From assembly GCF_017569205.1 (NCBI RefSeq), contig NZ_CP071870.1, forward strand, positions 434,001 to 498,000: a stretch of DNA of 64,000 bases. Reading direction: 5' to 3'. Below, piece by piece: positions 3,736 to 16,750 of this stretch. Numbering within the stretch: position 1 is the first letter of the stretch; every line of letters starts with the position of its first letter. Source of the DNA: Propioniciclava sp. MC1595. GTDB lineage: Bacteria > Actinomycetota > Actinomycetes > Propionibacteriales > Propionibacteriaceae. Below the pieces are notes generated by a model, which worked only from the letters and a program-made list of their open reading frames with translations, was not told the DNA's origin and did no database searches. The translations under genes were made by a program, and so were the position numbers.

Positions 3736-4659
3736 TCAGCGCCGGGACAGGTGGATCCCCGCCAACATGCAGCGCACCGAGCCGCCGGCGAGCTCGATGG
3801 TGGGCACGTCGATGGCCACGATGGGTGCCGACGCCTCGATCCGCTCGCGCTGCTCGGGGGTGTACGAGGCGGCCGCACGCGCCGAGCAGGCGTAGAACCG
3901 GCCTGCCGAGCCGGTGAGCTCCATCCCGTTGCCGGCGAACTCGGTCACCTGCTGCCAGGAGATGTCGATAACGTCGCGGCCAGAGTCCCGGAGCCGGGCC
4001 ACGATCTCGTCGCGCCGCTCGGCGTCCGTCATCACCTCGGCGCAGAGCAGGGCGAACTCGGTGCCGATGCTGAGGATCACGTTCGTGTGGTAGATCGGGT
4101 GGCCCGCCGGGTCGCGGTTCTCGAAGACCATCGGCTCGAACCCGAAGTGCGTGCAGAACCGCTCCAGGATGATGGGGTCGGCCCGGGTCGAGGCGCCGAC
4201 GTAGGCGACCCGCTCGGCGTGGTCGAGGATCATCGCGCCCGTGCCCTCGAGGAACAGCCCGTCGGCCTCCAGCCCCGAGTAGTCGATCACCTCCTGCACG
4301 CGGTACTCGCGCTTGAGCATCTCGATGACGTCCGACCGCCGCTCGCCACGGCGGCTGGGGGCGGCCATCGGGTACATGGCGATGCGGCCGCCCTGGTGGG
4401 TCGAGAACCAGTTGTTGGGGAAGACGGAGTCGGGCGTGTCCCGGGTCAGGTCGTCGAACACGTGCACCCGGACGCCGTGCTCCATCAACGTGCGCGCCAC
4501 CGCGTCGACCTCCCGCAGCGCGCGGGCTTCGAACGCCTCGGCGTTGATCTCGGGGCGGGGCAGCTGGAAGGCGTTGTCGGCGGCGGTCTCGGGGTTGGGC
4601 GTGAAGTGGTGGGGACGGACCATCACGACGGCCGACGGGGCCTGGATCTGGGTGCGCAC
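3736..4659 (-). CDS. ctlX: CtlX-type citrulline/arginine-family hydrolase
   Basis: Member of the guanidino-group-modifying superfamily (arginine deiminase, amidinotransferase), closest in pattern to the CtlX citrulline-utilisation hydrolases. Visible motifs are the substrate-binding VFPNNWFSTH, EGTGAMILDH, the catalytic-histidine region YHTNVILSIG, and the nucleophilic cysteine near the C-terminus in GGSVRCMLAGIH. GTG at 4659 gives 307 residues and starts just before the conserved APSAVVMVRPHHF. Upstream in-frame ATGs (4713, 4695) would begin inside a hairpin and add unconserved residues. Likely role: nitrogen salvage beside the hut operon. The substrate is not proven from sequence. Confidence 0.82.
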   Translation of the reverse strand: MRTQIQAPSAVVMVRPHHFTPNPETAADNAFQLPRPEINAEAFEARALREVDAVARTLMEHGVRVHVFDDLTRDTPDSVFPNNWFSTHQGGRIAMYPMAAPSRRGERRSDVIEMLKREYRVQEVIDYSGLEADGLFLEGTGAMILDHAERVAYVGASTRADPIILERFCTHFGFEPMVFENRDPAGHPIYHTNVILSIGTEFALLCAEVMTDAERRDEIVARLRDSGRDVIDISWQQVTEFAGNGMELTGSAGRFYACSARAAASYTPEQRERIEASAPIVAIDVPTIELAGGSVRCMLAGIHLSRR

Positions 4660-4678
4660 GCCCCCATCGTGGGCAATG

Positions 4679-4722
4679 CGAGGCGGCGTGTCCATTGCCG
4701 CAGCAACGGACACGCCGCCTCG
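4679..4722. terminator. 15-bp perfect hairpin
   Basis: CGAGGCGGCGTGTCC (4679-4693) pairs perfectly with GGACACGCCGCCTCG (4708-4722) across a 14-nt loop. It lies directly downstream (minus strand) of the SDR C-terminal remnant and upstream of ctlX, as expected for the original terminator of the SDR transcript. No clear U-tract. Confidence 0.7.
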
Positions 4723-4768
4723 TCAGGTCAGCCTTCGATCGGGCTGGGTCCCCGGGGGTGGGACGGGA

Positions 4769-4838
4769 TCACTGGGCGGTGAAGCCGCCGTCGACGCCGA
4801 TCTCGGAACCGGTCATGAAGTTCGCCTCGTCGGAGGCC
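4769..4838 (-). pseudogene. Last 23 codons of a split short-chain dehydrogenase
   Basis: The minus strand reads ASDEANFMTGSEIGVDGG then FTAQ and TGA, the classic SDR C-terminus. There is no start or upstream SDR sequence here. The missing front part is 11 kb away at 15848-16266, on the same strand and in the right order. Joining base 4838 to base 15848 restores one in-frame SDR across the junction (IRFL followed by ASDEANF). Confidence 0.85.
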
Positions 4839-5053
4839 ACACCCTGTTGGACGTCCGAGCAAGCGGCCAAGCGGCCCTCATCCCCTTGGGCGCCCATCGG
4901 GTGTGCTCGACTCTGCCGACGGGCGTGTGGTTACTCAACTGCCCAGTAGCGGTCGTCAAAGTCGACGGCGGTATATCCCGGACTTGCCGGGAGGGAGGCT
5001 TGACGGATGGCTACCACTCTTGACCGTAACGAGCGACCGGCCAACGTTGCTGG

Positions 5054-5335
5054 TCACTCGCCGTCGGGCGGGGTATCCCTCATTCCCATCACCACGCCAG
5101 CTTCGACGGAGCAGTCGATCGTGAGCAGGCCTCGGTAGAGATGGTCGACGCCGGTAGCGGTCATCGTCCAAGGAACGGCGACCTGCTGGACCTGCTGCCC
5201 GGTCCACACGGCGAGCTTGCCGGCGCTTCGCTCGATCCCCTTAGGTCTTAGGTCTCCGACATGCCAAATGAGCACGGTCCCGTCCAATCGGTCCTCCAAT
5301 GAGAGGTTGCCCCACGCAAGTTGTACTGGTAGCAC
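5054..5335 (-). CDS. Small hypothetical protein, doubtful
   Basis: A 93-residue frame with ATG, no recognised family, no membrane segment and no strong ribosome-binding site. It lies between the SDR remnant and the metal operon. The remainder of 4839-5442 shows no other gene I can support; a plus-strand 43-codon frame starting at 5000 (MATTLDRNERPANVAGHS) is preceded by a purine-rich stretch but is unrecognised. Codon choice is less GC3-biased than in neighbouring genes, fitting imported DNA or non-coding sequence. Confidence 0.3.
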   Translation of the reverse strand: MLPVQLAWGNLSLEDRLDGTVLIWHVGDLRPKGIERSAGKLAVWTGQQVQQVAVPWTMTATGVDHLYRGLLTIDCSVEAGVVMGMRDTPPDGE

Positions 5336-5429
5336 CGATTGTTGCTGAGTCGCGTATTCATCAGATGTCGACTGCTGTTTCGCCTTGTGGCGGAGGCTGA
5401 TGCATCCGGCGATTGATCAGCCTGTGCTG

Positions 5430-5453
5430 TATAGTTCAGTGCATGCTGACTAT
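5430..5453 (+). promoter_or_regulatory. Candidate leaderless promoter and CmtR operator
   Basis: TATAGT (5430-5435) is a good -10 element whose predicted start point falls on the A of the cmtR ATG at 5443, implying a leaderless transcript. Overlapping it, ATAGTTCAG (5431-5439) and CTGACTAT (5446-5453) form an imperfect inverted repeat across the start codon. A repressor bound here would block transcription initiation. Assignment to CmtR is by position only. Confidence 0.45.
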
Positions 5454-5802
5454 TGCTTCTCGACTCGACGTCATGAACCGGCTCGGCCGGGCCATGGCGG
5501 ATCCGACGCGTTCCCGGATCCTGATGACCCTGCTCGAGGGACCGAGCCACCCGGCGGTGCTCTCGCGTGAGCTGGAGCTGACTCGCTCGAACGTGTCGAA
5601 CCACCTCACCTGCCTGCGCGACTGCGGCATCGTGGTCGCTGAGCCGGAGGGTCGCCAGACTAGGTATGAGATCGCTGATCCGCACCTCGCGGCCGCTCTC
5701 ATCGCGCTGGTGGATGTGACTCTGGCTGTCGACGAGCACGCTCCGTGCGTGGACTCGTCGTGCACCGTTCCGGGTTGCTGCGGAGCGGGAGCAGACGCGT
5801 GA
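5443..5802 (+). CDS. cmtR: CmtR-type ArsR-family Cd/Pb-sensing repressor
   Basis: Winged-helix metalloregulator of 119 residues that should repress the following exporter genes and release DNA on binding Cd(II) or Pb(II). It closely matches mycobacterial CmtR: MADPTRSRIL, the recognition helix LTRSNVSNHL, and all three known CmtR ligands at identical positions, Cys57 and Cys61 (SNHLTCLRDCG) and Cys102 (DEHAPC). This numbering works only with ATG 5443; the upstream in-frame ATG 5413 would add ten residues. The C-terminal tail holds four more cysteines (SSCTVPGCC), which CmtR itself does not have as I know it. Its stop overlaps the next gene's GTG. Confidence 0.9.
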   Translation: MLTIASRLDVMNRLGRAMADPTRSRILMTLLEGPSHPAVLSRELELTRSNVSNHLTCLRDCGIVVAEPEGRQTRYEIADPHLAAALIALVDVTLAVDEHAPCVDSSCTVPGCCGAGADA

Positions 5803-7715
5803 GCGCGGCATGCGGCTGCGAGCACGAGCCGACGACCACGGCAGTCGATGAGAGCGAGGAGAAGGAGCGGCCCTGGTGGAGGGACCGCGGGATCATGGTG
5901 CCGGTCTTCTCCGGTGTCGCGTTCCTCGCTGGTCTGATCCTTGAGTGGTCCGGCATGGAGATCCCGGCACTGGTGCTGTTCTGGGTCGGCTTGCTGCTGG
6001 GCGCGTCGACGTTCACGCCGGGCGCGATCCGGAAGCTGTTCAAGGGCAAGCTGGGCATCGGGCTGCTGATGACGATCAGCGCGGTCGGCGCAGTCGTCCT
6101 CGGCTACGTCGAAGAGGCTGCGGCGCTGGCGTTCCTCTACTCGATCGCAGAGGCGCTGGAGGACAAGGCGATGGACCGCGCCCGCGGCGGGCTGCGAGCG
6201 CTGCTGAAGCTGGTCCCCGACACCGCGACCGTGCGCCGCGACGGCGCTTCGGTGGAGATTGCGGCGAAGGACCTCGCGGTCGGGCAGGTCATGGTGGTTC
6301 GTCCCGGCGAGCGGATCGCGACCGACGGAGTCGTCCGTGCGGGGCGCTCCAGCCTGGACACCTCGGCGATCACGGGCGAGTCGATCCCGGTCGAGGTCGA
6401 GCCCGGCGACGCCGTGTCGGCCGGCGCGATCAACAGCGCCGGTGCGCTGGAGGTCGAGACGACGGCGGCGGGCACCGACAACTCGCTCACGACCATCGTG
6501 GAGCTGGTGGAGCAGGCGCAGGCGGAGAAGGGCGAGCGAGCGCGCCTCGCGGACCGGATCGCGCGCCCGCTGGTCCCGGGCGTGCTGGTCCTCGCGGCCC
6601 TGGTCGCCCTGGTCGGCTCGCTGTTCGGGGACCCGGAGCTGTGGATCACCCGAGCCCTCGTCGTCCTCGTCGCCGCCTCCCCGTGCGCGCTGGCGATCTC
6701 GGTGCCGCTGACGGTGGTCGCGGCGATCGGCGCGGCGAGCAAGTTCGGCGTGATCATCAAGTCCGGCGCGGTGTTCGAGCGCTTCGGCACGGTCCGCCAC
6801 GTCGCCGTCGACAAGACCGGCACCCTCACCCGCAACGAGCCCGCCGTCACCGCGGTCCTCGCCGCGGACGGCGTGACCGACGCCCAGGCGCTGGCCTGGG
6901 CGGCCGCGCTGGAGCAGCACAGCACGCACCCGCTGGCCGCGGCGATCACCGCCGCAGCCCCCGGAGCCCAGGCTGCGGAGGGCGTGACCGAGCAGGCCGG
7001 GCACGGCATCGAGGGCAAGATCGACGGGTCTCGGATCACCGTCGGCAGCCCCCGCTGGCTCGACGCCGGGGTGCTCGGCGACCAGGTCGCGGGCCTGGAG
7101 GAGCAGGGCATGACCGTTGTGATCGTGCACCGCGACGGGGCCCCTGTCGCCGCGATCGGCGTCCGCGACGAGCTGCGTCCCGAGGTCCCCGAAGTGGTGC
7201 GGACTCTCGCGGCGCAGGGCGTCGGGGTGACGATGCTCACCGGCGACAACGCCCGCACGGCACGGGCGCTGGCAGCGCAGGCCGGTATCAGCGACGTGCG
7301 CGCGGAACTGCGTCCCGAAGACAAAGCGACCGCGATCGGGGAGCTGTCAAAGGCGGGGTCGGTTGCAATGATCGGCGACGGCATCAACGACGCCCCCGCT
7401 CTGGCCGCCGCGGACATCGGCATCGCGATGGGCGCGACCGGCTCGGACGCGGCGATCGAGTCCGCCGACGTCGCGTTCACCGGCCACGACCTCCGCCTCA
7501 TCCCGCGCGCGTTCGACCACGCCCGCCGCGGACGCCGCATCATCAACCAGAACATCGTCCTGTCGCTGCTGATCATCACCGCGCTGCTGCCGCTCGCGCT
7601 GTTCGGCGTCCTCGGACTCGCCGCTGTGGTGCTGGTCCACGAGATCGCCGAGGTCGTCGTGATCCTCAACGGACTCCGCGCCGCCCGCACGCGTACCCCA
7701 CGGCTGGAGAGCTGA
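5799..7715 (+). CDS. ctpG: CtpG-like P1B-type heavy-metal ATPase
   Basis: Inner-membrane ATP-driven metal exporter, 638 residues. Landmarks in order: short N-terminus with CGCEH instead of a full HMA domain, paired hydrophobic segments, TGES phosphatase loop, the intramembrane SPCALAISVP metal-binding motif, DKTGT phosphorylation site (Asp338), HP motif in STHPLAAA, MLTGDN, and the GDGINDAP hinge. The last membrane pair contains VLVHEIAEVVVILNG. SPC rather than CPC and pairing with cmtR match mycobacterial CtpG (Cd/Pb-responsive). GTG 5799 is chosen for its 4-bp overlap with the cmtR stop. The stop overlaps the next ATG. Confidence 0.9.
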   Translation: MSAACGCEHEPTTTAVDESEEKERPWWRDRGIMVPVFSGVAFLAGLILEWSGMEIPALVLFWVGLLLGASTFTPGAIRKLFKGKLGIGLLMTISAVGAVVLGYVEEAAALAFLYSIAEALEDKAMDRARGGLRALLKLVPDTATVRRDGASVEIAAKDLAVGQVMVVRPGERIATDGVVRAGRSSLDTSAITGESIPVEVEPGDAVSAGAINSAGALEVETTAAGTDNSLTTIVELVEQAQAEKGERARLADRIARPLVPGVLVLAALVALVGSLFGDPELWITRALVVLVAASPCALAISVPLTVVAAIGAASKFGVIIKSGAVFERFGTVRHVAVDKTGTLTRNEPAVTAVLAADGVTDAQALAWAAALEQHSTHPLAAAITAAAPGAQAAEGVTEQAGHGIEGKIDGSRITVGSPRWLDAGVLGDQVAGLEEQGMTVVIVHRDGAPVAAIGVRDELRPEVPEVVRTLAAQGVGVTMLTGDNARTARALAAQAGISDVRAELRPEDKATAIGELSKAGSVAMIGDGINDAPALAAADIGIAMGATGSDAAIESADVAFTGHDLRLIPRAFDHARRGRRIINQNIVLSLLIITALLPLALFGVLGLAAVVLVHEIAEVVVILNGLRAARTRTPRLES

Positions 7716-8323
7716 TGCTTGCGACCATCGGCTCAGCGATCGGCTTGTTTGCTGCGACCAACATCGATGACATCGTCGTGCTGACCGTGCTGTTCCTGGC
7801 CTCCAGCCGAGGGAAGCCGCGACCGTGGCAGATCGTCGCAGGCCAGTACCTCGGGTTCATCACCCTCGTCGTGATCAGCGTGATCGCCGCGCTCGGCCTG
7901 ACCATCGTCCCCGACGAATGGGTGGGCTTCCTCGGCCTGATCCCGCTCGGCATCGGCATCTGGACCCTCGTGCGGGGCCTGCGACGCAACGGTGACGACG
8001 ATGACGACGACGAGAAGATCACCGCGGTCGGGCTGTGGGGCGTCGCCGGGATCACGATCGCCAACGGGGCCGACAACATCTCCCTCTACACGCCGATCTT
8101 CCGCACCAGTTCGCCCGGCGACGTCGTCGTCATGATCGCGGTGTTCCTCGTCCTCGTCGCCGTCTGGTGCGCTGCTGGACGCCTGATCGGAACCCACAAG
8201 GCCGTCACCGAAACGCTTGAACGCGTCGAGCACTGGCTCGTACCCGTCGTGTTCATCGGCCTGGGCCTGTTCATCCTGATCGATTCCGGCGTCATCGTCC
8301 GCCTCGTCGAGGTCCTCGCATGA
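7715..8323 (+). CDS. cadD: CadD-like cadmium resistance transporter
   Basis: Integral membrane protein of 202 residues in the LysE/CadD superfamily. The N-terminal GLFAATNIDDIVVLTVLF and the repeated NGADNISLYTPIF are the two acidic asparagine/aspartate half-motifs of the CadD family, each in the first helix of an inverted half. The halves are separated by an acidic cytoplasmic loop (DDDDDDE, about residues 93-98). It likely exports or buffers Cd(II) alongside the P-type ATPase. ATG overlaps the ATPase stop (ATGA) and its stop overlaps the lspA ATG, so it is the middle of a coupled operon. Confidence 0.87.
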   Translation: MLATIGSAIGLFAATNIDDIVVLTVLFLASSRGKPRPWQIVAGQYLGFITLVVISVIAALGLTIVPDEWVGFLGLIPLGIGIWTLVRGLRRNGDDDDDDEKITAVGLWGVAGITIANGADNISLYTPIFRTSSPGDVVVMIAVFLVLVAVWCAAGRLIGTHKAVTETLERVEHWLVPVVFIGLGLFILIDSGVIVRLVEVLA

Positions 8324-8844
8324 CCCCGGACGCGGCTGCCGATGCTGAGCTGACGTCGGGAGAGCGGCAGCAGAGGGGGCGTTGGCGGCTCACGGCGGGG
8401 GCACTCGCGCTCGGCGGGCTCGTCCTCCTGATCGATCAGGGGACGAAGGCATGGGCGGAGGCCACGCTCACAGTAAGTGAGCGCCTCCCGCTGATCGGCG
8501 ACCTGCTGGGCCTGCAACTCGCTTACAACCCCGGCGCGGCGTTCTCCTTCGGTGAGGGTTCCACCTGGGTGTTCGCGCTGGTGGCCGTCGCGGCCACCGT
8601 CACCGCGATCGTGTTCGCGTTCCGTGTCCGACACCCCGGGTGGGCGATCGTGATCGGCGCGCTTGGCGGGGCCGCCGCCTCCCACGCCGGCGACAGGCTT
8701 TTCCGTGCTCCAGGGTTCGCCCAGGGGCACGTCGTGGACTTCCTCGCCTACGGGAACTGGTTCATCGGGAACGTCGCCGACGTCGTGATCGTCACCGCCG
8801 CGATCGCCGGAGCGCTTCTGATGATCCGCGGCAACGAGAACTGA
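8320..8844 (+). CDS. lspA: Signal peptidase II paralogue in a metal operon
   Basis: Membrane aspartyl protease of the LspA family, 174 residues with four hydrophobic segments. Family features: DQGTKAWAE in the first segment, YNPGAAFSF, and the two catalytic-aspartate regions SHAGDRLF and VVDFLAYGNWFIGNVAD. The flanking residues differ from housekeeping LspA (usual GN-x-x-DR is SHAGDR, usual FN-x-AD is GNVAD), so this is a divergent second copy rather than the essential one. It may process a metal-binding lipoprotein. Start overlaps the cadD stop; the next gene starts 10 bp downstream. Confidence 0.85.
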   Translation: MTPDAAADAELTSGERQQRGRWRLTAGALALGGLVLLIDQGTKAWAEATLTVSERLPLIGDLLGLQLAYNPGAAFSFGEGSTWVFALVAVAATVTAIVFAFRVRHPGWAIVIGALGGAAASHAGDRLFRAPGFAQGHVVDFLAYGNWFIGNVADVVIVTAAIAGALLMIRGNEN

Positions 8845-8854
8845 GAGGACCATC

Positions 8855-9166
8855 ATGGAGATCATCCTGCAGTATTTCAACGGCTGCCCCAACTGGGAGG
8901 TGCTCGACCAGCGGCTCGCTGAAGTAGTCAACGACCGATCCGATGTCAGGGTCATACGTCAGCTGGTCGAGACCCCCGAGGACGCCGTGCGCCTCGGGTT
9001 CCACGGCTCCCCAACCGTGCTCGTCGACGGCATCGACCCGTTCGCCGACGAGCGTACCCACGTCGGGCTCGCCTGCCGGATGTTCCGCACGCCAGCTGGG
9101 ATCGCCGGGTCGCCGACCGTCGAGCAGTTGCGCGAAGCGATTTCCGGCCCGGGCGCTGACGTGTGA
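8855..9166 (+). CDS. Thioredoxin-fold protein of a metal operon
   Basis: 103-residue protein of the type often found beside mer, ars and cad genes. It begins MEIILQYFNGCPNWEVLDQR: a beta strand followed by CPNW, so only one cysteine remains where thioredoxins have CxxC. Later motifs are GFHGSPTVLVDGIDPF, the cis-proline strand, and VGLACRMFRT with a second cysteine. A metal or redox carrier role is an inference from context. A purine-rich AGAGGACC precedes ATG 8855. Last gene of the operon. Confidence 0.75.
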   Translation: MEIILQYFNGCPNWEVLDQRLAEVVNDRSDVRVIRQLVETPEDAVRLGFHGSPTVLVDGIDPFADERTHVGLACRMFRTPAGIAGSPTVEQLREAISGPGADV

Positions 9167-9173
9167 TGCTCGT

Positions 9174-9410
9174 TCAGGCGTGGTCGGAACGGAGTGCCGG
9201 ATAGTCGGACCAGTCACCGCCGGCGAGACGCGACCATGCGGCGGCGGACGAGGTCGTGATGCCGAGGAGATCCGAGACGATCCGGGGATGCATTTGCCGG
9301 GTGAGCTCGATGAGCGCTGTGGTGCGTGCGCTTCCCGCGAGCAGGCCTTCGGCGCGAAGACGACGGCTCAGCGGGCCCGGGGTGAGGTGATTGCCTGGGT
9401 TCCGGCCACA
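9174..9410 (-). pseudogene. C-terminal remnant of a tyrosine-recombinase-like integrase
   Basis: The minus strand encodes RNPGNHLTPGPLSRRLRAEG, then RTTALIELTRQMHPRIVSDL and AAAWSRLAGGDWSDYPALRS followed by TGA. This is the tail pattern of actinobacterial phage-type integrases (a helix block then DLLGI, then a W-x-x-LAGGDW segment). The catalytic core (R...HxxR...Y) is absent. The rest of 9411-9714 has stops in every frame and shows only further decayed sequence. It is likely the relic of the integrase that brought in this block. Confidence 0.5.
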
Positions 9411-9960
9411 TTGACCAGCCCGTGTGCCGAGTTAGCCGCCTTGCCAGTCTGGCGGCGCCAAGTTCGGTCGCCCACCCTATTGATCTGGTGCCTGGGATGG
9501 CCCAGCGGCCGGAGTGCTCTGATCCGGTCACTGGTGGTTGCGTCGCTTCGGAAGTCGAACGCGGTGTCGATCAGCATGTGAGCAGTGATGCCCCTGCGCC
9601 CGAACGCGCGCAACTGCCGCGGCTGGTGCTTGCGGGTCGGACCGTGGCCAGGCCGGCGCATACAGTCGACGACAGCGCCGGACGGCGAACCGATGTCCCG
9701 GGAAAGAGCAAGGCATGACCCCAGCAATGAACTCCACGCGGCGCCTGAGCGCGAGGGCCGTCGCGCTCATCGGAACGGGGGCGGTGGTTGCTTACGCGCT
9801 GCTCGCCGCGGTCCAGATCCTCGTGTGGAATCCGCAGGCTGCAGTCCCCGGCGTCGGTCTCGACCAGATATACGCGGACGTGGCCGCGACTGGCGAATCC
9901 ATGGCTGCCGGGATGGTCATTGCCTTCCTGGCGGTCGGGCCCCTGCTGGCGATCGCGCTG

Positions 9961-10840
9961 CTAGGGCGTGTCGCGTAACTGGTCTCGTAGGCAGATGATG
10001 GTGCTGGCCAGGACGAGGCCGGCGCGGTAGTTGCGAGCGAGTTTGTCGTAGCGGGTGGCGATGGCGCGGAACTCCTTGATCCGGTTGAAGAAGCGTTCCA
10101 CCACGTTCCTGCCCTTGTAGATGGTGGGATCGAAGGCAGGTGGGCGACCGCCGCGGCTGCCCTTGGCCTTGCGACGGGCGATCTGGTCGGAGCGTTCGGG
10201 GATGGTCACCTTGATCCTTCGCCGCCGGAGCTCGGTTCGGGTCGAGGGATGGGAGTAGGCCTTGTCCGCGACCACCCGGACAACCCGGTGAGGGGCAAGA
10301 TCGATCACATCCAACAGGCGGGGGTTCTCACCGGCCTGACCCGGGGTGACCACCAGCGAGCACAGGTGACCGGAGGCGTCGACCAGGGCGTGGGACTTCG
10401 TCGTCCACCCGCCACGGGAGTGCCCCAAGGCGTGATCAGCTGGTTCGGCCCGAGGATTCTTGTAGTTCGGTGGATCCCCCTTTTCGGGCGCCGGCAGCGT
10501 GCTTGTGGGCCCGCACGATCGTGCCGTCCACCACCGCGACCAGACCTTCTGCCTCCGGTGAACCGGCGATGGCGGTGAGGATCTTGTCCCAGGTACCGTC
10601 CTGGGCCCACGCGTTGAAGCGGCGCCACAAGCTCGACCACGATCCGAACTCGGCCGGCACGTCCCGCCACGGCGACCCCGTCCGCAACCGCCAACAGATG
10701 CCCTCCACCGTCCGCCGGTGGTCATTCCACGGACGGCCGCCCTTCGCGCCCCCACGCGGCATCAACGGCTCAATCCGCGCCCACATCTCGTCACTGAACT
10801 GAGGACTCCTGGTCACAAAGACAACCCTGACCCCCACCAC
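9961..10840 (-). CDS. IS5-family transposase made by ribosomal frameshifting
   Basis: Frame A (10840 to 10436) encodes the N-terminal part starting VGVRVVFVTRSPQFSDEMWA, with the first DDE aspartate in VVDGTIVRAHKH. Frame B continues after a shift with NYKNPRAEPADHALGHSRGG, the second aspartate in VVADKAYSHPS and the glutamate in ERFFNRIKEFRAIATRYDKL. The overlap contains AAAAGGGGG on the coding strand (complement of 10476-10484), a plausible slippery run; frame B is offset +1 from frame A. Frame B's stop TAG is completed by the flanking TA duplication plus one host base. Confidence 0.88.
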
Positions 10841-10864
10841 CCAAATCAGTTACGCGACACGCCC
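9964..10864 (-). mobile_element. IS5-family (IS427-like) insertion sequence, 901 bp
   Basis: Terminal inverted repeats GGGCGTGTCGCGTAACTG (9964-9981) and its exact complement (10847-10864) are flanked by a TA duplication (9962-9963 and 10865-10866). The element carries one transposase in two overlapping frames on the minus strand. Insertion splits a membrane-protein gene in frame. The perfect repeats and exact TA suggest a recent insertion. Confidence 0.93.
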
Positions 10865-11195
10865 TAGTCGGCGCCTGGAGGCGGCCCGAGGGGCGGGCCA
10901 GTGTGGTGGGGGTCCCGTTCCTGGTTCTGCTGGCTTTGGGAGCCCCAGCCTATTTCTGGGCGAACTTCGGTCCGGGCATGGCCTTGGCCGACACGTTCTT
11001 CGTTAGTGGGGGTGATCATTCAGCGTGGTCTGCCCCGTTGTACGTGACGAGCGGCCTCGCTGTCCTTGCCCTCGTTGGGCACGTGGTGTGGAACCGCTCG
11101 AGCCGTCAGTAGGAACCCAGAAGGGCGGGGTGAGAACGTCCGCTTCTGCCGCACTGTGCGCGGATGCTGCCCTTGGGCTGGAGGTAGCGCACCTA

Positions 11196-11855
11196 TCAGG
11201 TACACCAGTCCAGGTCGCCCGCGTGGACGATTGTCTCGCCGCCCACATTTGTAGGCGGTATGAGGACGACATCCTCGGCCGACCAAGCGCCCATGTGTTC
11301 CAGTCCGCCACCCTCCGGATAGAGGGCCTTCAGCTGGGCCAACGACTTGCCGACAGGGATTCCCTTGTCCAAGGCCAGCGGCGCCTTGGGAGCGCCGGTG
11401 AAGGTGATATCCCAAGACTGCAGCGTCCGCGGCGACGTCGATTTGTTGTCGTTCGCGGCGAACCGGATCTTCAATTCTCCGAACATCGCATACGACTGGT
11501 AGCCCCCTCCCGCCCCCTCGCAGCCCCCGACCTGGCCCTGCACCTCGGGCGTGCCAAGGGCGGGCTTCAGAAACCCCAGGACGTCCTTCTCGGGGGCGCC
11601 GAACTTGAACGGTCCAACTCCCTTGCTCGACAAGACGATCGTGGACGCCTTCGTCGCGGTCGGTGTCGGGCTGGCCGTCGTGACCAAGGATGGGGACGTC
11701 GAACTCTGCGGCGTGACCGATGGTGACGCTGTGGTCGTCGGCTCGATCGACGGAGACATCACTGGCGTGGTGACCGGGCTGCCGGCGCAACCTGTCAGTG
11801 CCGCGGCCAGCCCGAAGGCCAGCACGATCGTTCGGACATCCCCCCGTCTTCCCAT
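11196..11855 (-). CDS. Secreted lipoprotein of unknown function
   Basis: 219 residues. An N-terminal signal peptide ends in a lipobox ALTGCAG, so the mature protein should be lipid-anchored at Cys23. Next is a long Ser/Thr/Pro-rich linker (about residues 28-68), then a compact domain with GVGPFKFGAPEKDVLGFL, two distant cysteines and a C-terminal DLDWCT. The domain layout resembles small actinobacterial surface lipoproteins, but I recognise no family. It could in principle be a substrate of the LspA paralogue in the same island; that link is speculative. The 210 bp downstream to 12068 hold only a short direct repeat. Confidence 0.75.
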   Translation of the reverse strand: MGRRGDVRTIVLAFGLAAALTGCAGSPVTTPVMSPSIEPTTTASPSVTPQSSTSPSLVTTASPTPTATKASTIVLSSKGVGPFKFGAPEKDVLGFLKPALGTPEVQGQVGGCEGAGGGYQSYAMFGELKIRFAANDNKSTSPRTLQSWDITFTGAPKAPLALDKGIPVGKSLAQLKALYPEGGGLEHMGAWSAEDVVLIPPTNVGGETIVHAGDLDWCT

Positions 11856-11944
11856 GGCGCCATGCTCCTACCGCGACGCACCGGATTCAAGGTCCCTGCG
11901 GCCGACCTCGCGCCGAGGATGGCTCGAGGCTGACTGTCCTAACG

Positions 11945-11964
11945 TCCTGTATTGCCGCCGTCCG
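11945..11964 (+). repeat. 20-bp direct repeat, left copy
   Basis: TCCTGTATTGCCGCCGTCCG here matches TCCTGTTCTGCCGCCGTCCG at 13686-13705 at 18 of 20 positions. The copies bracket the 12069-13127 and 13199-13681 genes (1.7 kb), which would fit a cassette-like acquisition or deletion scar. Confidence 0.6.
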
Positions 11965-12068
11965 GAAGTGCCGATGGGCTGACGTTGACGCACAGCGACC
12001 GACCGTTGCGGTGCGCCCTATGGTGTACCGCATGCGGCTGGCCCCTGACCTGCGGATCGTTCTCAAGA

Positions 12069-13127
12069 GTGGCTGAGAAACCAGAGGTCACGACTGTCAC
12101 CCGCCGGGTCTCGTTGCCCCCAGGGTCGCCGCCGCTGTCCACCCTCATGCCGCCATGGCTCGGTCATGATGGTTCATACGTGCTCGCTGAGCTCGACGTA
12201 GACGCTCCTCGCGGCCCGTGGGCGATGATCGATCTCGACTCCGGCCGGGCGGGTGTCGGGCGCCGGATGCCGCAGATCTGGGGGGCACTTCTGGACGGTC
12301 AGGGACCCGCACTGCTCGGCACCTCTGGCGGCGTCATCGAGGTCGACCTGAGCGGCCCCAGCACGGTGCGTGAACTGCATCAGGGGGTTGGCCACGGCCG
12401 CGACGGTGCGGAGACGGAGTTCCTCCGCCTGGACCATCGCCACGTCCTGGCTGCAGCGCTCGGACAACAGAGAGCCAAGGTCATCGATCTGGACCGCTGG
12501 GCCGTCGTGAACTCACAAGTCGAAATCACTTCGCCGTGGGTAGCGCTTGGCGACACCCCCACGCGAATCTGGTCGCTACCAAGAGGAGAAGTCGCCTCCC
12601 TGAACGCCTCGCACGAGGTGACGCACCGGACAACTGCCCCTGCCGCGCTGGCCGCAGCTCGCTCGACGCGCGCGCTGTATGCACTCGTCGGCGAGCTGCG
12701 GCCGCGTCGCGGCACCGCCTGGTGGCATGCAATTGGCCGGGACCTACTTCCCACCGGTCTCCAGCAGTATCTGGACAGCCCGCTGGACGAGGTTGAGCTC
12801 TGCAAGCTGGACCCTCGAACCCTCGAAGTCAAGGCCGCCCGTCGCCTCGGCTCCCTCGCGCAGGTGCTGGAGGAAGCGCTCGCCACCACCCTTGCCGATG
12901 ATGAGGAGTGGAGCACCGGCCTGCTGCACCGCTGCCTCAGCACCGATGCTGCCGGAAGGCCCGCCCTCGTGGCCGGCAGTCGTGTCGTCGTCCTCGATGA
13001 CAACACGCTAAGGCCGGTCACGGATACACGACTCCCCAATACCGGGTCGTCCACCTGGGCATCTCAAAACGGCCAATCCCGAGCTGTTGCTACCAGTTCC
13101 GACCGGGTATACATCGCTGACTGGTGA
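12069..13127 (+). CDS. Hypothetical cytoplasmic protein, possible beta-propeller
   Basis: 352 residues from GTG 12069; no recognised family, signal peptide or membrane segment. The sequence is a series of short beta-rich stretches such as GPWAMIDLDSGRAGVGRRMP, LLGTSGGVIEVDL, LAAALGQQRAKVIDLDRWAV and RPALVAGSRVVVLDDNTLRP, about 40-50 residues apart, which suggests a WD/PQQ-like propeller. The start is uncertain: the frame is open back to 11952, but GTG 12069 begins the region with consistent coding character. Its stop touches a GTG in the next gene's frame (GTGA). Confidence 0.6.
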   Translation: MAEKPEVTTVTRRVSLPPGSPPLSTLMPPWLGHDGSYVLAELDVDAPRGPWAMIDLDSGRAGVGRRMPQIWGALLDGQGPALLGTSGGVIEVDLSGPSTVRELHQGVGHGRDGAETEFLRLDHRHVLAAALGQQRAKVIDLDRWAVVNSQVEITSPWVALGDTPTRIWSLPRGEVASLNASHEVTHRTTAPAALAAARSTRALYALVGELRPRRGTAWWHAIGRDLLPTGLQQYLDSPLDEVELCKLDPRTLEVKAARRLGSLAQVLEEALATTLADDEEWSTGLLHRCLSTDAAGRPALVAGSRVVVLDDNTLRPVTDTRLPNTGSSTWASQNGQSRAVATSSDRVYIADW

Positions 13128-13198
13128 TGTCCCAGCAGCGTCCTGTCAGGCCGCAGGTCGCGACTACCTCGTGGGGAGGTGGAGCGAGAATTCACCCC

Positions 13199-13681
13199 AT
13201 GAGGTACTGCGCGCAGATGGCCGCCACGGAGGTGGTCCAGATCATCGCGTGGCTTGAGGCCGCCGGTGTGATCTATCAGATCAACGGTGGATGGGGCGTC
13301 GACGGACTGGTGGGCCGACAGACCCGCCCGCACCAAGATCTAGACGTGTTCATCGATGCACATCACGAGGCCAACTTCTTGACCTGGCTGACCTCTCGCG
13401 GTTACCGGGTCACGCAGGATTGGCGCCCGGTCCGCGTCGAACTCTCGAGCCCCGGAGGGCGAGTGGATGTTCACCCGATGCGAATGGATGCGGCCGGCAA
13501 TGGGGTGCAAGAGGGCCTCGACGGCGAGGTGTATGTCCACGCCGCTGAGCATCGAGTCAACGGTCACATCGACGGGCACGCGGTCGTCGTAGCCAGCGCC
13601 CAGCGGGCGCGGGCGCTTCGCAGTGGCTACCCTCCGCGCGAGGTCGACCTACACGATCTCGCCCTGCTCGACGACCTGTAA
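13199..13681 (+). CDS. Lnu/AadA-like nucleotidyltransferase (antibiotic modification type)
   Basis: 160-residue small nucleotidyltransferase. The diagnostic block INGGWGVDGLVGRQTRPHQDLDVFID (about residues 23-48) is the GGWxxD...DxD metal and nucleotide site of lincosamide and aminoglycoside nucleotidyltransferases. The later VRVELSSPGGRVDVHPM supplies the third acidic residue. The family adenylates lincosamides or aminoglycosides, but many chromosomal relatives have no tested substrate. ATG 13199 is chosen; 13217 is equally possible and GTG 13124 would couple it to the upstream gene. A 20-bp repeat lies immediately 3'. Confidence 0.72.
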   Translation: MRYCAQMAATEVVQIIAWLEAAGVIYQINGGWGVDGLVGRQTRPHQDLDVFIDAHHEANFLTWLTSRGYRVTQDWRPVRVELSSPGGRVDVHPMRMDAAGNGVQEGLDGEVYVHAAEHRVNGHIDGHAVVVASAQRARALRSGYPPREVDLHDLALLDDL

Positions 13682-13685
13682 GGCA

Positions 13686-13705
13686 TCCTGTTCTGCCGCC
13701 GTCCG
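13686..13705 (+). repeat. 20-bp direct repeat, right copy
   Basis: Partner of 11945-11964 (18 of 20 identical), starting 5 bp after the nucleotidyltransferase stop. Confidence 0.6.
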
Positions 13706-13999
13706 CGCCCGAGAGGATGTGAGGCGTGGCCGATGGTGAACAGCACCGGCTAAATGCCCGAGGGGCCGGTAGTAGGTTCCCTGAGCATCTGTACGATTTC
13801 GTCGTGGAGTCGCCTGTCGTCTGGACTGAGGCCATCGAGTACCTCTTGGAGGCTAACGGTCGACTGGCGCACCTCGTGCCGGCTCGCTCTCGTCAGGAAG
13901 ACCCGCGTGTAGTCGGCGACGTCGGGATCGACCGTTAGTGTCCAGTTGGGGTCGGGTCCGTTCGCGAACCACGCCGAGGGCCCGAACTTCAGCTGGAAA

Positions 14000-15453
14000 G
14001 AGCAATGATCAGAACCTGTGGATGGTCCTCGGCGGGGTGACGTGAAGGAGCGCACCTCCCCGAGGATGATCTGAAGTCCGAGTAGCTCTGATCAGGACCG
14101 GCGTTGACGCGCTGGTTCGGGAAGGTACGCCCATGCTTACGGTAGTCCACGACGAGAACGAGTCCAACGAGCACGCCCCGGCCGCGGTGGGTGGGTCGAT
14201 GCTGGACGAGTTGGCCCGGGAGGGTGCCCGGCGGATGCTGGCTGCGGCGTTGCAGGCTGAGGTCGCCGCCTACATCGAGCAGTGCGCCGACGAGCTCGAC
14301 GCCGACGGCCGGCGGCTGGTGGTCCGCAACGGCTACCACCAGCCGCGGGAGGTGGCCACCGCCGCGGGTGCGGTACCGGTCCGGGCGCCGCGGGTCAACG
14401 ACAAGCGCGTCGATGAGGCCACGGGTGAGCGGCGGCGGTTCTCGTCGGCGATCCTGCCGGCGTGGGCGCGGAAGTCGCCGCAGGTGGCCGACGTGCTGCC
14501 CTTGTTGTACCTGCACGGGTTGTCCAGCGGGGACTTCGTGGCCGCCCTGGAGCAGTTCTGCGGGTCGGCGGCGGGGTTGTCGGCGGCGACGATCACCCGG
14601 CTCACCCGGCAGTGGCAAGACGAGGCCCGAGCGTTCCACGACCGGCCGCTGGCGGGGGTCGATTATGTGTACCTGTGGGTGGACGGCATCCACCTGAAGG
14701 TGCGGCTGGAAGCCGACAAGGTATGCCTGCTGGTGATGATCGGGGTCCGTGCCGATGGCACCAAGGAACTCGTCGCGCTCGCCGACGGGTACCGCGAGTC
14801 GGCTGAGTCGTGGGCCGACCTGCTGCGGGACTGCAAGCGCCGCGGCATGCAGGCCCCGGTCCTGGCGGTCGGGGACGGCGCGCTGGGCTTCTGGAAGGCG
14901 CTCCATGACGTGTTCCCCCAGACACGGGAGCAGCGGTGTTGGTTCCACAAGCTCGGCAACGTGCTGGCCGCCCTGCCGAAGTCGGCCCACCCCGCCGCGA
15001 AGAAGGCGCTCGCCGAGATCTATGCCGCCGAGGATGTCGACCATGCCCGGGCCGCCGCCAAGGCGTTCGCCGCCGAGTACGGCGTCAAGTGGCCCAAAGC
15101 CGCCGCGAAGATCACCGACGACCTCGACGTGCTGCTCGCGTTCTTCGAGTTCCCCGCCGAGCACTGGGTCCACCTGCGGACGACCAATCCGATCGAGTCG
15201 ACGTTCGCGACCCTCCGGCTCCGACAGCGGGTCACCAAGGGACCCGGGTCCCGGGCGGCGGGGATCGCGATGGCGTTCAAGCTGCTCGAGTCGGCCCAGG
15301 CCCGCTGGCGAGCCGTGAACGCTCCCCATCTGGTCGCCCTCGTCCGCGCCGGCGCCCGCTTCACGAAGGGCAAACTCGTCGAACGACCCGCCGAATCAGC
15401 AACCGACGAGCAAGCCGCCTGACACGCCCATCCACAGGTCTTGACGATTCCTC
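14000..15453 (+). mobile_element. IS256-family insertion sequence, 1454 bp
   Basis: Ends are GAGCAATGATCAGAACCTGT (14000 on) and, inverted, GAGGAATCGTCAAGACCTGT (15453 back); the 26-bp terminal repeats continue with GGATGG and differ at about five positions. The 9-bp target duplication AGCTGGAAA is present at 13991-13999 and 15454-15462. Both the duplication length and the transposase fit IS256. Confidence 0.93.
14133..15422 (+). CDS. IS256-family transposase (mutator type)
   Basis: 429 residues, full length for the family and apparently intact. The DDE residues are visible in YVYLWVDGIHLKVRLE (first Asp), VLAVGDGALGFWKALHDVFP (second Asp) and HLRTTNPIESTFATLRLRQR (Glu), with the typical QRCWFHKLGNVL between them. 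Starts ATG 14133 near the left end; the stop lies 31 bp inside the right end. It encodes a DNA-cutting and joining enzyme for movement of this element. Confidence 0.95.
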   Translation: MLTVVHDENESNEHAPAAVGGSMLDELAREGARRMLAAALQAEVAAYIEQCADELDADGRRLVVRNGYHQPREVATAAGAVPVRAPRVNDKRVDEATGERRRFSSAILPAWARKSPQVADVLPLLYLHGLSSGDFVAALEQFCGSAAGLSAATITRLTRQWQDEARAFHDRPLAGVDYVYLWVDGIHLKVRLEADKVCLLVMIGVRADGTKELVALADGYRESAESWADLLRDCKRRGMQAPVLAVGDGALGFWKALHDVFPQTREQRCWFHKLGNVLAALPKSAHPAAKKALAEIYAAEDVDHARAAAKAFAAEYGVKWPKAAAKITDDLDVLLAFFEFPAEHWVHLRTTNPIESTFATLRLRQRVTKGPGSRAAGIAMAFKLLESAQARWRAVNAPHLVALVRAGARFTKGKLVERPAESATDEQAA

Positions 15454-15847
15454 AGCTGGAAACTGGCCTCTCCGAAGTCCACGGTCAAAGAGTCATCGAT
15501 CTCGAAGTTGATGGTCCACTGGTAAATACCCTTGTAGCCGGCGCTGACGCCGCGGACGAATCCGTCTCCCAGTGTGGCGTTCAACTGCCGTAGGAGGTGG
15601 TGTGCGCAGTAGCTCTTCAGCCGTGCTTTGACCCGCTGCAGGAGATCTCGCCCCTCCCCGAACCGCTCCTTCGCCTGGTCGGCGAGTTCGTTCGCGAATT
15701 GCTCGGCTGCCACGTCCTGGCGCCTCTCTTGGTACCGCTTCGCCTGACCGGTTTCGCACATGGCGACCACGAAGCCCAGCACGTCTTGGTCTTCCATGGG
15801 CCCCCTTCCCTTCACGAACTTGCGGTGCATCTGATCGATGAATGAGT

Positions 15848-16266
15848 AGGAACCGGATGACGGTGGCGATGTCGTCGGGGCGCCCGAGGCGGCCCATCGG
15901 GGTGGCGGCGATGAGTCCCGACTTGTCGGAGTCGCCGAGGATCGGGGTGTCGTAGGAAACCTCTTCGAGGGGCTCGGTGTCGCCGATGCCGGCGTTGTTG
16001 ACCAGGATGTCGAGGCGACCGTACTTCTCGACAGTCTTGGCGACGGCGGCGGCCCAGTCCTCCTCGCTCGTGACGTCGAGGCGCACGTAGGTGGCGTCGC
16101 CACCGCGGTCACGGATGCCGAGGGCGACCTGCTCGCCGAGCTCGTCCTGGATGTCGGCGATCACCACGTTGGCGCCTTCCTCGGCGAAGCGCTGGCAGGT
16201 GAGCTTGCCGATGCCGGAGGCGCCACCGGTGACGAGGGCGACGCGGTTGGTGAAACGAAGGTTCAT
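15848..16266 (-). pseudogene. Short-chain dehydrogenase, front part, internally deleted
   Basis: Starts MNLRFTNRVALVTGGASGIG (Rossmann TGxxxGIG) behind AAGGAG, then DVTSEEDWAAAV and LDILVNNAGIGDTEP. After EVSYDT it jumps in frame to ILGDSDKSGLIAATPMGRLG, skipping about 90 residues with the catalytic Ser and YxxxK; the junction is near 15944. At 15848 the gene meets the island, and its last 23 codons are at 4769-4838. It therefore carries two lesions: a catalytic-core deletion and an 11-kb insertion. Downstream in the same direction of the muconolactone isomerase-like gene, so probably once part of a catabolic operon. Confidence 0.85.
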
Positions 16267-16414
16267 GTCCTGCTCCTTTGCGAGGATCCGACCGGTGTGT
16301 CCCGGAGGTTCTGGATCCACGACAAGGAATTCATCGTTCGGGCCTCCACAGGTTGCAGTCTGTTGGCATCAAGATACTCGACGACTGAAGCATCTCCCCG
16401 TCGCCGCGACGAAC

Positions 16415-16693
16415 TCAGCGGATGGAGTTCGGGTGCTTGCAGAGGGCGGTGGTCTCGATGTCCATGTAGGGGAACATCGGGAAGCCCGAGAGGATCTCGT
16501 GCAGGCGCTCGGACGACTCCACCTCGAAGATCGACACGTTCGCGTAGCGGCCGACGACGCGGTAGATCGCCTCGAACTCACCCGAGCGCTGCAGCGCCTG
16601 CGAGTACTCCTTCTCGGCGGCCTGCTTCTCGGCGATCTCCTCCTTCGACATCGACTCGGGGAACTTCACCTGCATGCGGCACAGGAACTTCAT
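16415..16693 (-). CDS. Muconolactone delta-isomerase family protein
   Basis: 92 residues, the normal length of CatC-type muconolactone isomerases, small ferredoxin-like decamer-forming enzymes of the beta-ketoadipate pathway. It begins MKFLCRMQVKFPESMSKEEI behind AAAGGAG and ends with FPMFPYMDIETTALCKHPNS, the family's typical tail. No other catechol-branch genes are in view, so aromatic catabolism is uncertain; the family also includes YCII-like proteins. It precedes the SDR gene on the same strand by 148 bp. Confidence 0.75.
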   Translation of the reverse strand: MKFLCRMQVKFPESMSKEEIAEKQAAEKEYSQALQRSGEFEAIYRVVGRYANVSIFEVESSERLHEILSGFPMFPYMDIETTALCKHPNSIR

Positions 16694-16750
16694 GTGCTGG
16701 CTCCTTTCGTCGGGATGGACACTACGGGGCCGCGCGCCGGGCGGGCGTGA

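Follow-up and report, generated by a model that had tools for sequence, protein, structure and literature searches.

How did a block of 11 kb come to lie inside a short-chain dehydrogenase/reductase (SDR) gene of Propioniciclava sp. MC1595, and what kind of element is it? The window, that is, the whole stretch of 64,000 nucleotides that was analysed, comprises bases 434001-498000 of a one-contig genome of 3.43 Mb (completeness 100), and the island occupies nucleotides 4839-15847 of the window. In our study, the island was found to be a mosaic. Sequence comparison suggests, with a probability of roughly 0.58, that a composite island, built partly from short modules, was joined to an accessory and internally deleted SDR gene by conservative site-specific recombination at a pseudo-site.

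The SDR gene was present in two pieces:
4769-4838, minus strand: C-terminal part of the SDR, aligning to residues 224-245 of an intact homologue (L040, 245 aa)
15848-16266, minus strand: N-terminal part of the SDR, reading CATCC-GGTTC-CT at the break and lacking about 85 internal residues

The N-terminal part corresponded to residues 6-102 and 189-222 of the homologue, with zero overlap with the C-terminal part. It contained 419 nt, which are 139 codons followed by CT, and the C-terminal part contained 70 nt, which are a G followed by 23 codons including the stop. The CT and the G therefore make up one CTG (Leu) codon once 4839-15847 is left out. At the break 0 bases were lost and 0 gained, and there was no target duplication. 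It had been claimed in an earlier note on this DNA that the two pieces lie on the same strand, in the right order, and rejoin in frame; this was true, down to the single CTG codon. The same note took 15848-16266 for the rest of the gene, which was wrong: at VSY^DTP the N-terminal part lacked about 85 residues (103-188 of the homologue), including the catalytic Tyr/Lys. The N-terminal features of a classical SDR (Rossmann region, TGxxxGIG, and NNAG) were found, with PF00106 over residues 8-105; the catalytic YxxxK segment fell inside the missing residues. The rejoined SDR would thus still be a relic, and it either was one before the split or has become one later. An island does split one SDR gene; the observation of the earlier note as a whole was partly confirmed, and its interpretation was partly supported.

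The flanks of the split gene contained the following features:
3736-4713, minus strand: DDAH-like gene, the conserved left neighbour (Pfam PF19420, E 9e-93)
4679-4722, strand not applicable: hairpin
16415-16693, minus strand: muconolactone-isomerase-like gene, accessory together with the SDR (PF02426, E 3e-34)
16751-19306, minus strand: FtsX/MacB-type permease, the conserved right neighbour (PF02687, PF12704)

Besides the DDAH-like gene, the left flank contained urocanase and other histidine-use genes, as judged by Pfam and by reading. In three congeners (G012, G007, and G009) the outer flanks, DDAH and permease, were found on a single contig, 24 bp, 2.4 kb, and 624 bp apart, respectively, and without an SDR; the identity of the DDAH-like gene was 90% in G012 and G007 and 88% in G009. 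The open reading frames (ORFs) between the flanks in G007 and G009 look like UbiB-like and cupin-like proteins. Among 32 genomes, the own one included, the DDAH gene was found in 10 and the permease in 15 (E 1e-40); the two were on separate contigs in G001, DDAH alone was found in G008 and G010, and the permease alone in G002 and G003. The SDR as the ancestral gene of the locus is ruled out by the three congeners that join the flanks without it. The isomerase had no full-length match at 1e-10 in the 12 other congeners, where a single 39-residue remnant was seen (G012), and of the 31 other genomes two, neither of them from the genus, gave full-length matches at 42-46% identity. The SDR itself gave some match at 1e-10 in 48 of 57 genomes including the own, with a best other match of 51% identity among the matches listed and no orthologue. 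At 1e-22 it was found in five of 198 family genomes, again including the own, with a best other match of 59% and no uninterrupted orthologue. Every one of the 3671 plasmid records matched was below 60% identity, and the 37 loci listed from genome contigs reached 59% at best in a type of search that may omit near records. The SDR and the neighbouring isomerase are accessory at this locus. An uninterrupted SDR followed by the hairpin at 4679-4722 had been expected in relatives; no such SDR was found, and the hairpin as an SDR terminator is ruled out, since it is part of the conserved locus and is present in G012 between the permease end and DDAH. The earlier note is right on the split, and wrong on the completeness of the SDR and on its standing at the locus.

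The left edge of the island was formed by a repeat, here called the anchor:
4839-4945, minus strand: 107-bp anchor repeat at the left edge of the island, with the outer end ...GGACGTCCAACAGGGTGT
4940-4957, minus strand: degenerate site GACGACC-GCTAC-TGGGCA on the inner side of the anchor, by our own reading of the sequence

The inner side of the anchor has the layout of the module sites described below, with an ACGTCC-like arm, N5, and TGGGCA. The outer edge GGGTGT| was conserved in all 10 copies that have this end, which were found in the own genome at the SDR, 61979, 277954, 1445187, and 3342902, and in G163 (another genus), G011, G004 (two copies), and G009. An eleventh copy (own 2335831) was truncated, and pieces of about 32 bp were found close to contig ends in G007 and G012. 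At own 1445187 and in one G004 copy the anchor continued as |ACTCC... to an ORF of about 195 aa encoding a serine recombinase, 60-75 bp away (in the own genome at 1445251-1445850). The G009 anchor was followed by the same 38 bp, and its recombinase ORF was reached only after about 2.35 kb of inserted DNA. The two adjoining recombinases (own and G004) contained the resolvase catalytic domain and a helix-turn-helix (PF00239, E 2e-37, and PF02796). The right edge of the island begins with ACTC, the first four bases of the native right half ACTCC; the frequency of ACTC was 0.00225 per position.

Seven plasmid relatives of the recombinase were compared (47-66% identity; the first to fifth, seventh, and ninth of at least 5000 records). 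A 16-base sequence like GTCCAGCAGGGTGTAC was found upstream of six of the seven, at -106 to -109 from the start. The Arthrobacter motif agreed in 15 of 16 bases (0 of 1000 shuffles were as good) and the other five in 12-13 of 16 (1 to 20 of 1000). The outer edge of the anchor resembles this upstream motif and probably represents half of the recombinase site upstream of the gene itself; the same then applies to the left edge of the island. In four Micrococcus plasmids (L236-L238 and L240) the stretch from GGGTATAC to the gene was nearly the same and the DNA to the left of GTCC differed, as recombination at that point would leave it.

Folding of the anchor was barely above that of shuffles (DNA z -1.2; RNA of the other strand z -1.6) and no Rfam family was found in it. 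The anchor had no match in plasmid and phage records by blastn, and an exact 24-base piece of it had none in viral contigs. A hemerythrin gene was considered as the target of anchor copy D and rejected, the genome being without hemerythrin. In G163 (C6:82993-84126, L165) the anchor, again followed by the cadmium/lead block described below, borders on a truncated conjugation gene resembling VirB4 (43 bits at best in NCBIfam, under the cut-off). A search for the missing halves of genes broken at other anchors, with three protein motifs over 11 loci, returned just this VirB4 piece.

Compared with the rest of the genome, the island contained repeated segments with sharp ends, several of them at TGCCGC following ACRTCC-N5 or a near form. 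These segments, or modules, and their sites were as follows:
9602-9620, plus strand: variant module site GAACGCGC-GCAAC-TGCCGC
9615-11146, plus strand: module m1 (small ORF; a membrane protein by reading), interrupted by an insertion sequence (IS)
11135-11152, plus strand: module site AACGTCC-GCTTC-TGCCGC
11147-11952, strand not applicable: module m2 (ORF 11196-11855, minus strand, of no family)
11941-11958, plus strand: module site AACGTCC-TGTAT-TGCCGC
11953-13693, plus strand: module m3 (unknown ORF and a nucleotidyltransferase-like gene, 13124-13681)
13682-13699, plus strand: module site GGCATCC-TGTTC-TGCCGC
13694-15847, strand not applicable: beginning of a fourth module, with the C-terminal part of a minus-strand gene that is interrupted by an IS

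The three consecutive modules m1-m3 fill 9615-13693. With exact ends, m1 was found at three places of the own genome and m3 at two: uninterrupted copies of m1 were present at own 79736-80378 and 3359129-3359771, and a 99.9% copy of m3 at own 3386554-3388301 with different neighbours. The right neighbours of the window m1 and of the copy at 79736-80378 were alike over about the first ten bases. Two further complete modules, ending identically and lying in different contexts, were shared between own 79131-79749 and G003, and between own 78163-79136 and G011, and in total four modules recurred with exact ends elsewhere in the own genome or in these two congeners. The TGCCGC is common to both adjoining modules and the N5 travels with the upstream one.

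The strict site AAC[AG]TCC-N5-TGCCGC was found 26 times in 43 loci (561,744 bases, of which loci L219-L232 were selected for holding a looser site pattern), against an expectation of 0.05 (mean of 20 Markov-1 resamplings). No site was found with spacings of 3, 4, 6, or 7, nor with one changed core or two changed arms. Eleven of the 26 were located in 430,275 bases that had been retrieved before the motif was recognised, and some of these are copies of each other, because stretches of the own genome had been picked for common island segments. Position +11 was G in 26 of 26 strict sites. Of 230 alignment ends, 70 were at most 12 bp from a site or from the edge of an anchor, mostly in anchor pairs (random mean 1.5, maximum 22 in 500 sets). 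A same-strand ORF ended within 40 bp before the site at eight of the 26, which is common and not general. Genes in or near the modules included MazF-type toxins, a ribbon-helix-helix protein, and a Doc-like toxin slightly under its cut-off. From these comparisons, modules have very probably been exchanged at fixed sites. The serine recombinase is a candidate for the enzyme of this exchange, and we put the chance that it is the right one at about even.

A few further observations were made around the modules. Mini-modules of about 75 bp without genes were present between TGCCGC copies at L194 and L158 (own 80373-80450), and in tandem in one congener. A repeat of about 130 bp was found immediately behind a module site in three species (L159, 264158-264287; L222, 1-130; L226, 9878-10012), perhaps a second anchor type. 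An element of 3.46 kb, which we presume to be RIT-like, was present in two identical copies of opposite orientation (own 73090-76550, L158, and 3378031-3381491, L164); it encoded two or more tyrosine recombinases, had inverted repeats of 87 bp, and adjoins IS21-type genes.

How could such an island have entered the SDR? The recombinase would swap DNA at sites with an ACRTCC arm and a core a few bases beyond it, and the anchor with its spacer would be its res-like site. The island would enter the SDR in circular form, or through an exchange equivalent to this, with the left half GTCCAACAGGGTGT and the right half ACTC..., and the CATCC-GGTTC of the SDR would serve as the half-site for entry. If a block with ACTC at its beginning and GGGTGT at its end recombined with the SDR pseudo-site, the observed joins would result without duplication or loss. 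The uninterrupted SDR relic would then read ...CATCCGGTTCCTGGCCTCC... across the break, with all bases present. The IS256-type and IS4/5-type elements would have arrived separately, each with its own target duplication. On the SDR strand of the N-terminal part a single CRTCCGSWWH half-site was found, 2 nt from the break; in the window this pattern gave 14 matches in 128,000 positions. That the same enzyme also brought the island into the SDR is about as likely as not.

The remainder of the island, to the left and to the right of the complete modules, contained the following features:
4839-5192, strand not applicable: left stretch of 354 bp, 100% identical in G163
5322-9407, plus strand: cadmium/lead block with cmtR, a P-type ATPase, a CadD-type transporter, signal peptidase II, and a DF-family-like protein
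9177-9431, minus strand: C-terminal remnant of a 653-aa protein of undefined family, corresponding to a G163 protein (an integrase relic in the earlier note)
9961-10867, including the CTAG duplication, minus strand: IS4/IS5-type element (PF13340, PF01609)
14000-15453, plus strand: IS256/Mutator-type element with the 9-bp duplication AGCTGGAAA

The left 354 bp were found in G163 at a different site and with the same terminal base 4839, and this recurrence with an identical end indicates that the left edge of the island is natural. The cadmium/lead block (4.09 kb) showed 99.8% identity in G163 (C6:77166-81252) and 99.9% in G167 (C70:459-4544); such near-identity across three genera of one family points to recent transfer. 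CmtR (176 bits, cut-off 150) and the P-type ATPase (555 bits, cut-off 346) passed their NCBIfam cut-offs. The CadD-type transporter and signal peptidase II passed those of Pfam and missed those of NCBIfam, and the DF-family protein was slightly under its cut-off. The nucleotidyltransferase-like gene of m3 gave 125.6 bits with Pfam PF10706 (cut-off 21), and 104 bits with the best NCBIfam resistance model (cut-off 340). Resistance is not established for it because it stays far below every matched NCBIfam resistance cut-off.

The IS4/IS5-type element had a 4-bp CTAG duplication, with nine more near-complete copies in the genome. The other element showed the marks of the IS256 family, with PF00872 at E 4e-65, 26-nt inverted repeats that were 81% complementary, and the 9-bp duplication. 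In an Rfam scan of 4600-16800 (E up to 1) the sole family above its cut-off was Ms_AS-8, at 14025-14096 on the minus strand (65.6 bits, cut-off 48). This match is located at the left end of the IS256-type element, and the sRNA family may therefore be part of the IS. At the right edge, the interrupted gene had its N-terminal half, with the nuclease domain, cut off at 15847. Its homologue in G170 was a PD-(D/E)XK nuclease (PF14281, 31.5 bits, cut-off 22.3, residues 174-316), which reads on upstream without a stop past the point of the cut. This uninterrupted homologue (G170 C199, L185; PDDEXK_4) has McrBC-like and type IV restriction genes as neighbours and may belong to a defence island. Neither the right-edge gene piece nor the m3 ORF had plasmid relatives at 1e-5.

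With regard to content, the metal resistance genes and the IS elements, two in number, that the earlier note had listed were present. Its lipoprotein (ORF 11196-11855) had no family in Pfam, NCBIfam, or PHROGs, and its integrase relic was not borne out either: the G163 protein whose C end it represents matched no integrase model in a comparison with Pfam, NCBIfam, PHROGs, and PDB sequences. Its antibiotic-type nucleotidyltransferase was present as a nucleotidyltransferase-like gene. The absence of terminal repeats or a target duplication at the edges was reproduced, both at the two junctions and among the 20 largest of 48 direct families and the 25 longest of 60 inverted pairs of repeats. The mode of entry, which had been left open, can be narrowed, as the edges resemble halves of a recombination site and are unlike IS ends.

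Several findings weigh against conservative recombination at a pseudo-site and against the proposed enzyme. The looser pattern RCRTCC-N5-TGCCGC was found 174 times in 13 genomes of the genus versus 155 for the reversed control; it exceeded the control in the own genome (26 versus 16) and in G009 (24 versus 13), and was rarer than the control in G006, G007, G008, G010, and G012. Counts so near the control indicate that the looser pattern is mostly chance, with arrays concentrated in some genomes. The module sites have no clear dyad. The recombinase adjoins the anchor at two of 10 loci and is near it at a third, and no recombinase gene was recognised within the island itself. The Curtobacterium plasmid was without the upstream motif, and four of the six matches were related Micrococcus records; the motif is at -77 (own) and -87 (G004), compared with -106 to -109 in the plasmids, the starts being annotated or called. 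The CRTCCGSWWH pattern fits 14 of the 26 strict sites (a looser form fits 23), TCC is separated from the break by 7 nt in the SDR but by 10 nt in the anchor, and the two central bases would agree only in part (CT versus GT). The SDR shares TCCT at this point with the homologue of the right-edge gene in G170, and a simple microhomology join could therefore also account for the junction. The anchor and the modules are oppositely oriented, which implies a history more complex than one insertion.

Another reading is that several unrelated rearrangements took place instead of a single insertion, for example a join at the TCCT microhomology and recombination between anchor copies. The mosaic content, the truncated nuclease gene, and the anchor copies at several other genomic places fit such a history along with the opposite orientation; the exact split of one codon and the coincidence of both edges with features of recombination sites do not, and we regard it as unlikely. 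Accretion of IS elements, as a composite transposon or as successive IS events with later deletion of the ends, is about equally unlikely. It would account for the two internal IS and for a cadmium/lead block that is at least 99.8% identical in three genera. However, each IS lies far from the block's ends and is flanked by a target duplication of its own, the edges are without a recognised IS, and the SDR shows no base loss or duplication; neither flanking IS copies nor a common target duplication, as in a composite transposon, were found. An assembly artefact or two separate SDR genes, the competing case named by the earlier note, can be practically dismissed: the genome is one contig, the left edge recurs in another genus, the pieces align without overlap to one homologue, and other SDR matches in the own genome have at most 44% identity.

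The system is probably not an integron, and a canonical array (tyrosine IntI and attC) or a cluster of attC sites lacking integrases (CALIN) within the island is highly improbable. Small modules with toxin-antitoxin and unknown genes, and sites facing the same way, frequently at intervals of 0.5-2 kb, are what such an array would show. The sites, however, have the core TGCCGC where an integron would have GTTRRRY. Within 150 bp of the 18-base site, the best inverted partner agreed in 8-10 of 18 bases upstream and 9-12 downstream, compared with a shuffle mean (upstream) of 8.9-10.3, and four folds of three sites gave z of 0.15 to 1.0. Sites of the attC type (GTTRRRY/RYYYAAC with a folding inverted partner) were thus rejected, as the upstream partners did not surpass shuffles and the folds were unremarkable. 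The two Xer-like proteins of the RIT-type element scored 26 and 64 bits versus the integron-integrase cut-off of 265, and no IntI reached this cut-off among the proteins scanned, a genome-wide search for intI not having been made.

Integrons, the systems from which cassette capture is known, are IntI/attC cassette arrays. The modules share with them small accessory genes, toxin-antitoxin pairs, a consecutive arrangement, exact exchange at a short core, and a platform at the array end; they differ in the TGCCGC core, in that no inverted partner of the attC type was found, and in that the nearest candidate recombinase is a serine enzyme. Tn3-type resolvase/res systems likewise have a serine recombinase of about 195 aa with, as may be the case here, a res-like region directly upstream, whereas here the sites are far from the gene and border many modules; no Tn3 transposase was noticed beside the recombinase, although no dedicated search was made. 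The staphylococcal cassette chromosome (SCC) elements with Ccr are similar in having serine recombinases and tandem cassettes at short sites, and partial CcrB matches were found here. The Ccr models are of 442-558 aa and the enzymes are borne by the element, whereas the present candidate is small and the modules examined carry none. The Xer/dif modules of Acinetobacter plasmids are also small and bounded by short sites, whereas their 11-6-11 palindrome was not seen in our site consensus. According to the IntegronFinder 2.0 paper, integrons are extremely rare in Actinobacteria, with 0 complete integrons and a few CALIN (PMC9024848). In titles and abstract openings of the literature, arrays of small cassettes moved by a serine recombinase were not found except for an SCC-type island (PMC10581047), and others may exist.

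Taken alone, the island is an ordinary mosaic; the interest lies in the module system that underlies it. A bolder reading, which we rate below the entry by site-specific recombination and as less likely than not, is a serine-recombinase counterpart of the integron in a genus of Actinobacteria. A small resolvase and its res-like anchor would be the platform. Free modules with toxin-antitoxin, nucleotidyltransferase-like, and unknown genes would be taken up and rearranged at AAC[AG]TCC-N5-TGCCGC and would move from species to species through these sites, and use of pseudo-sites by the same enzyme would drop arrays and metal-resistance cargo into ordinary genes such as the SDR. If this is true, the enzyme and the site form a testable pair, and the split SDR is the trace of an accidental landing of an array. 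A short-site module system differing from integrons in Actinobacteria would help to explain how accessory islands are built and how small genes are shared between species.

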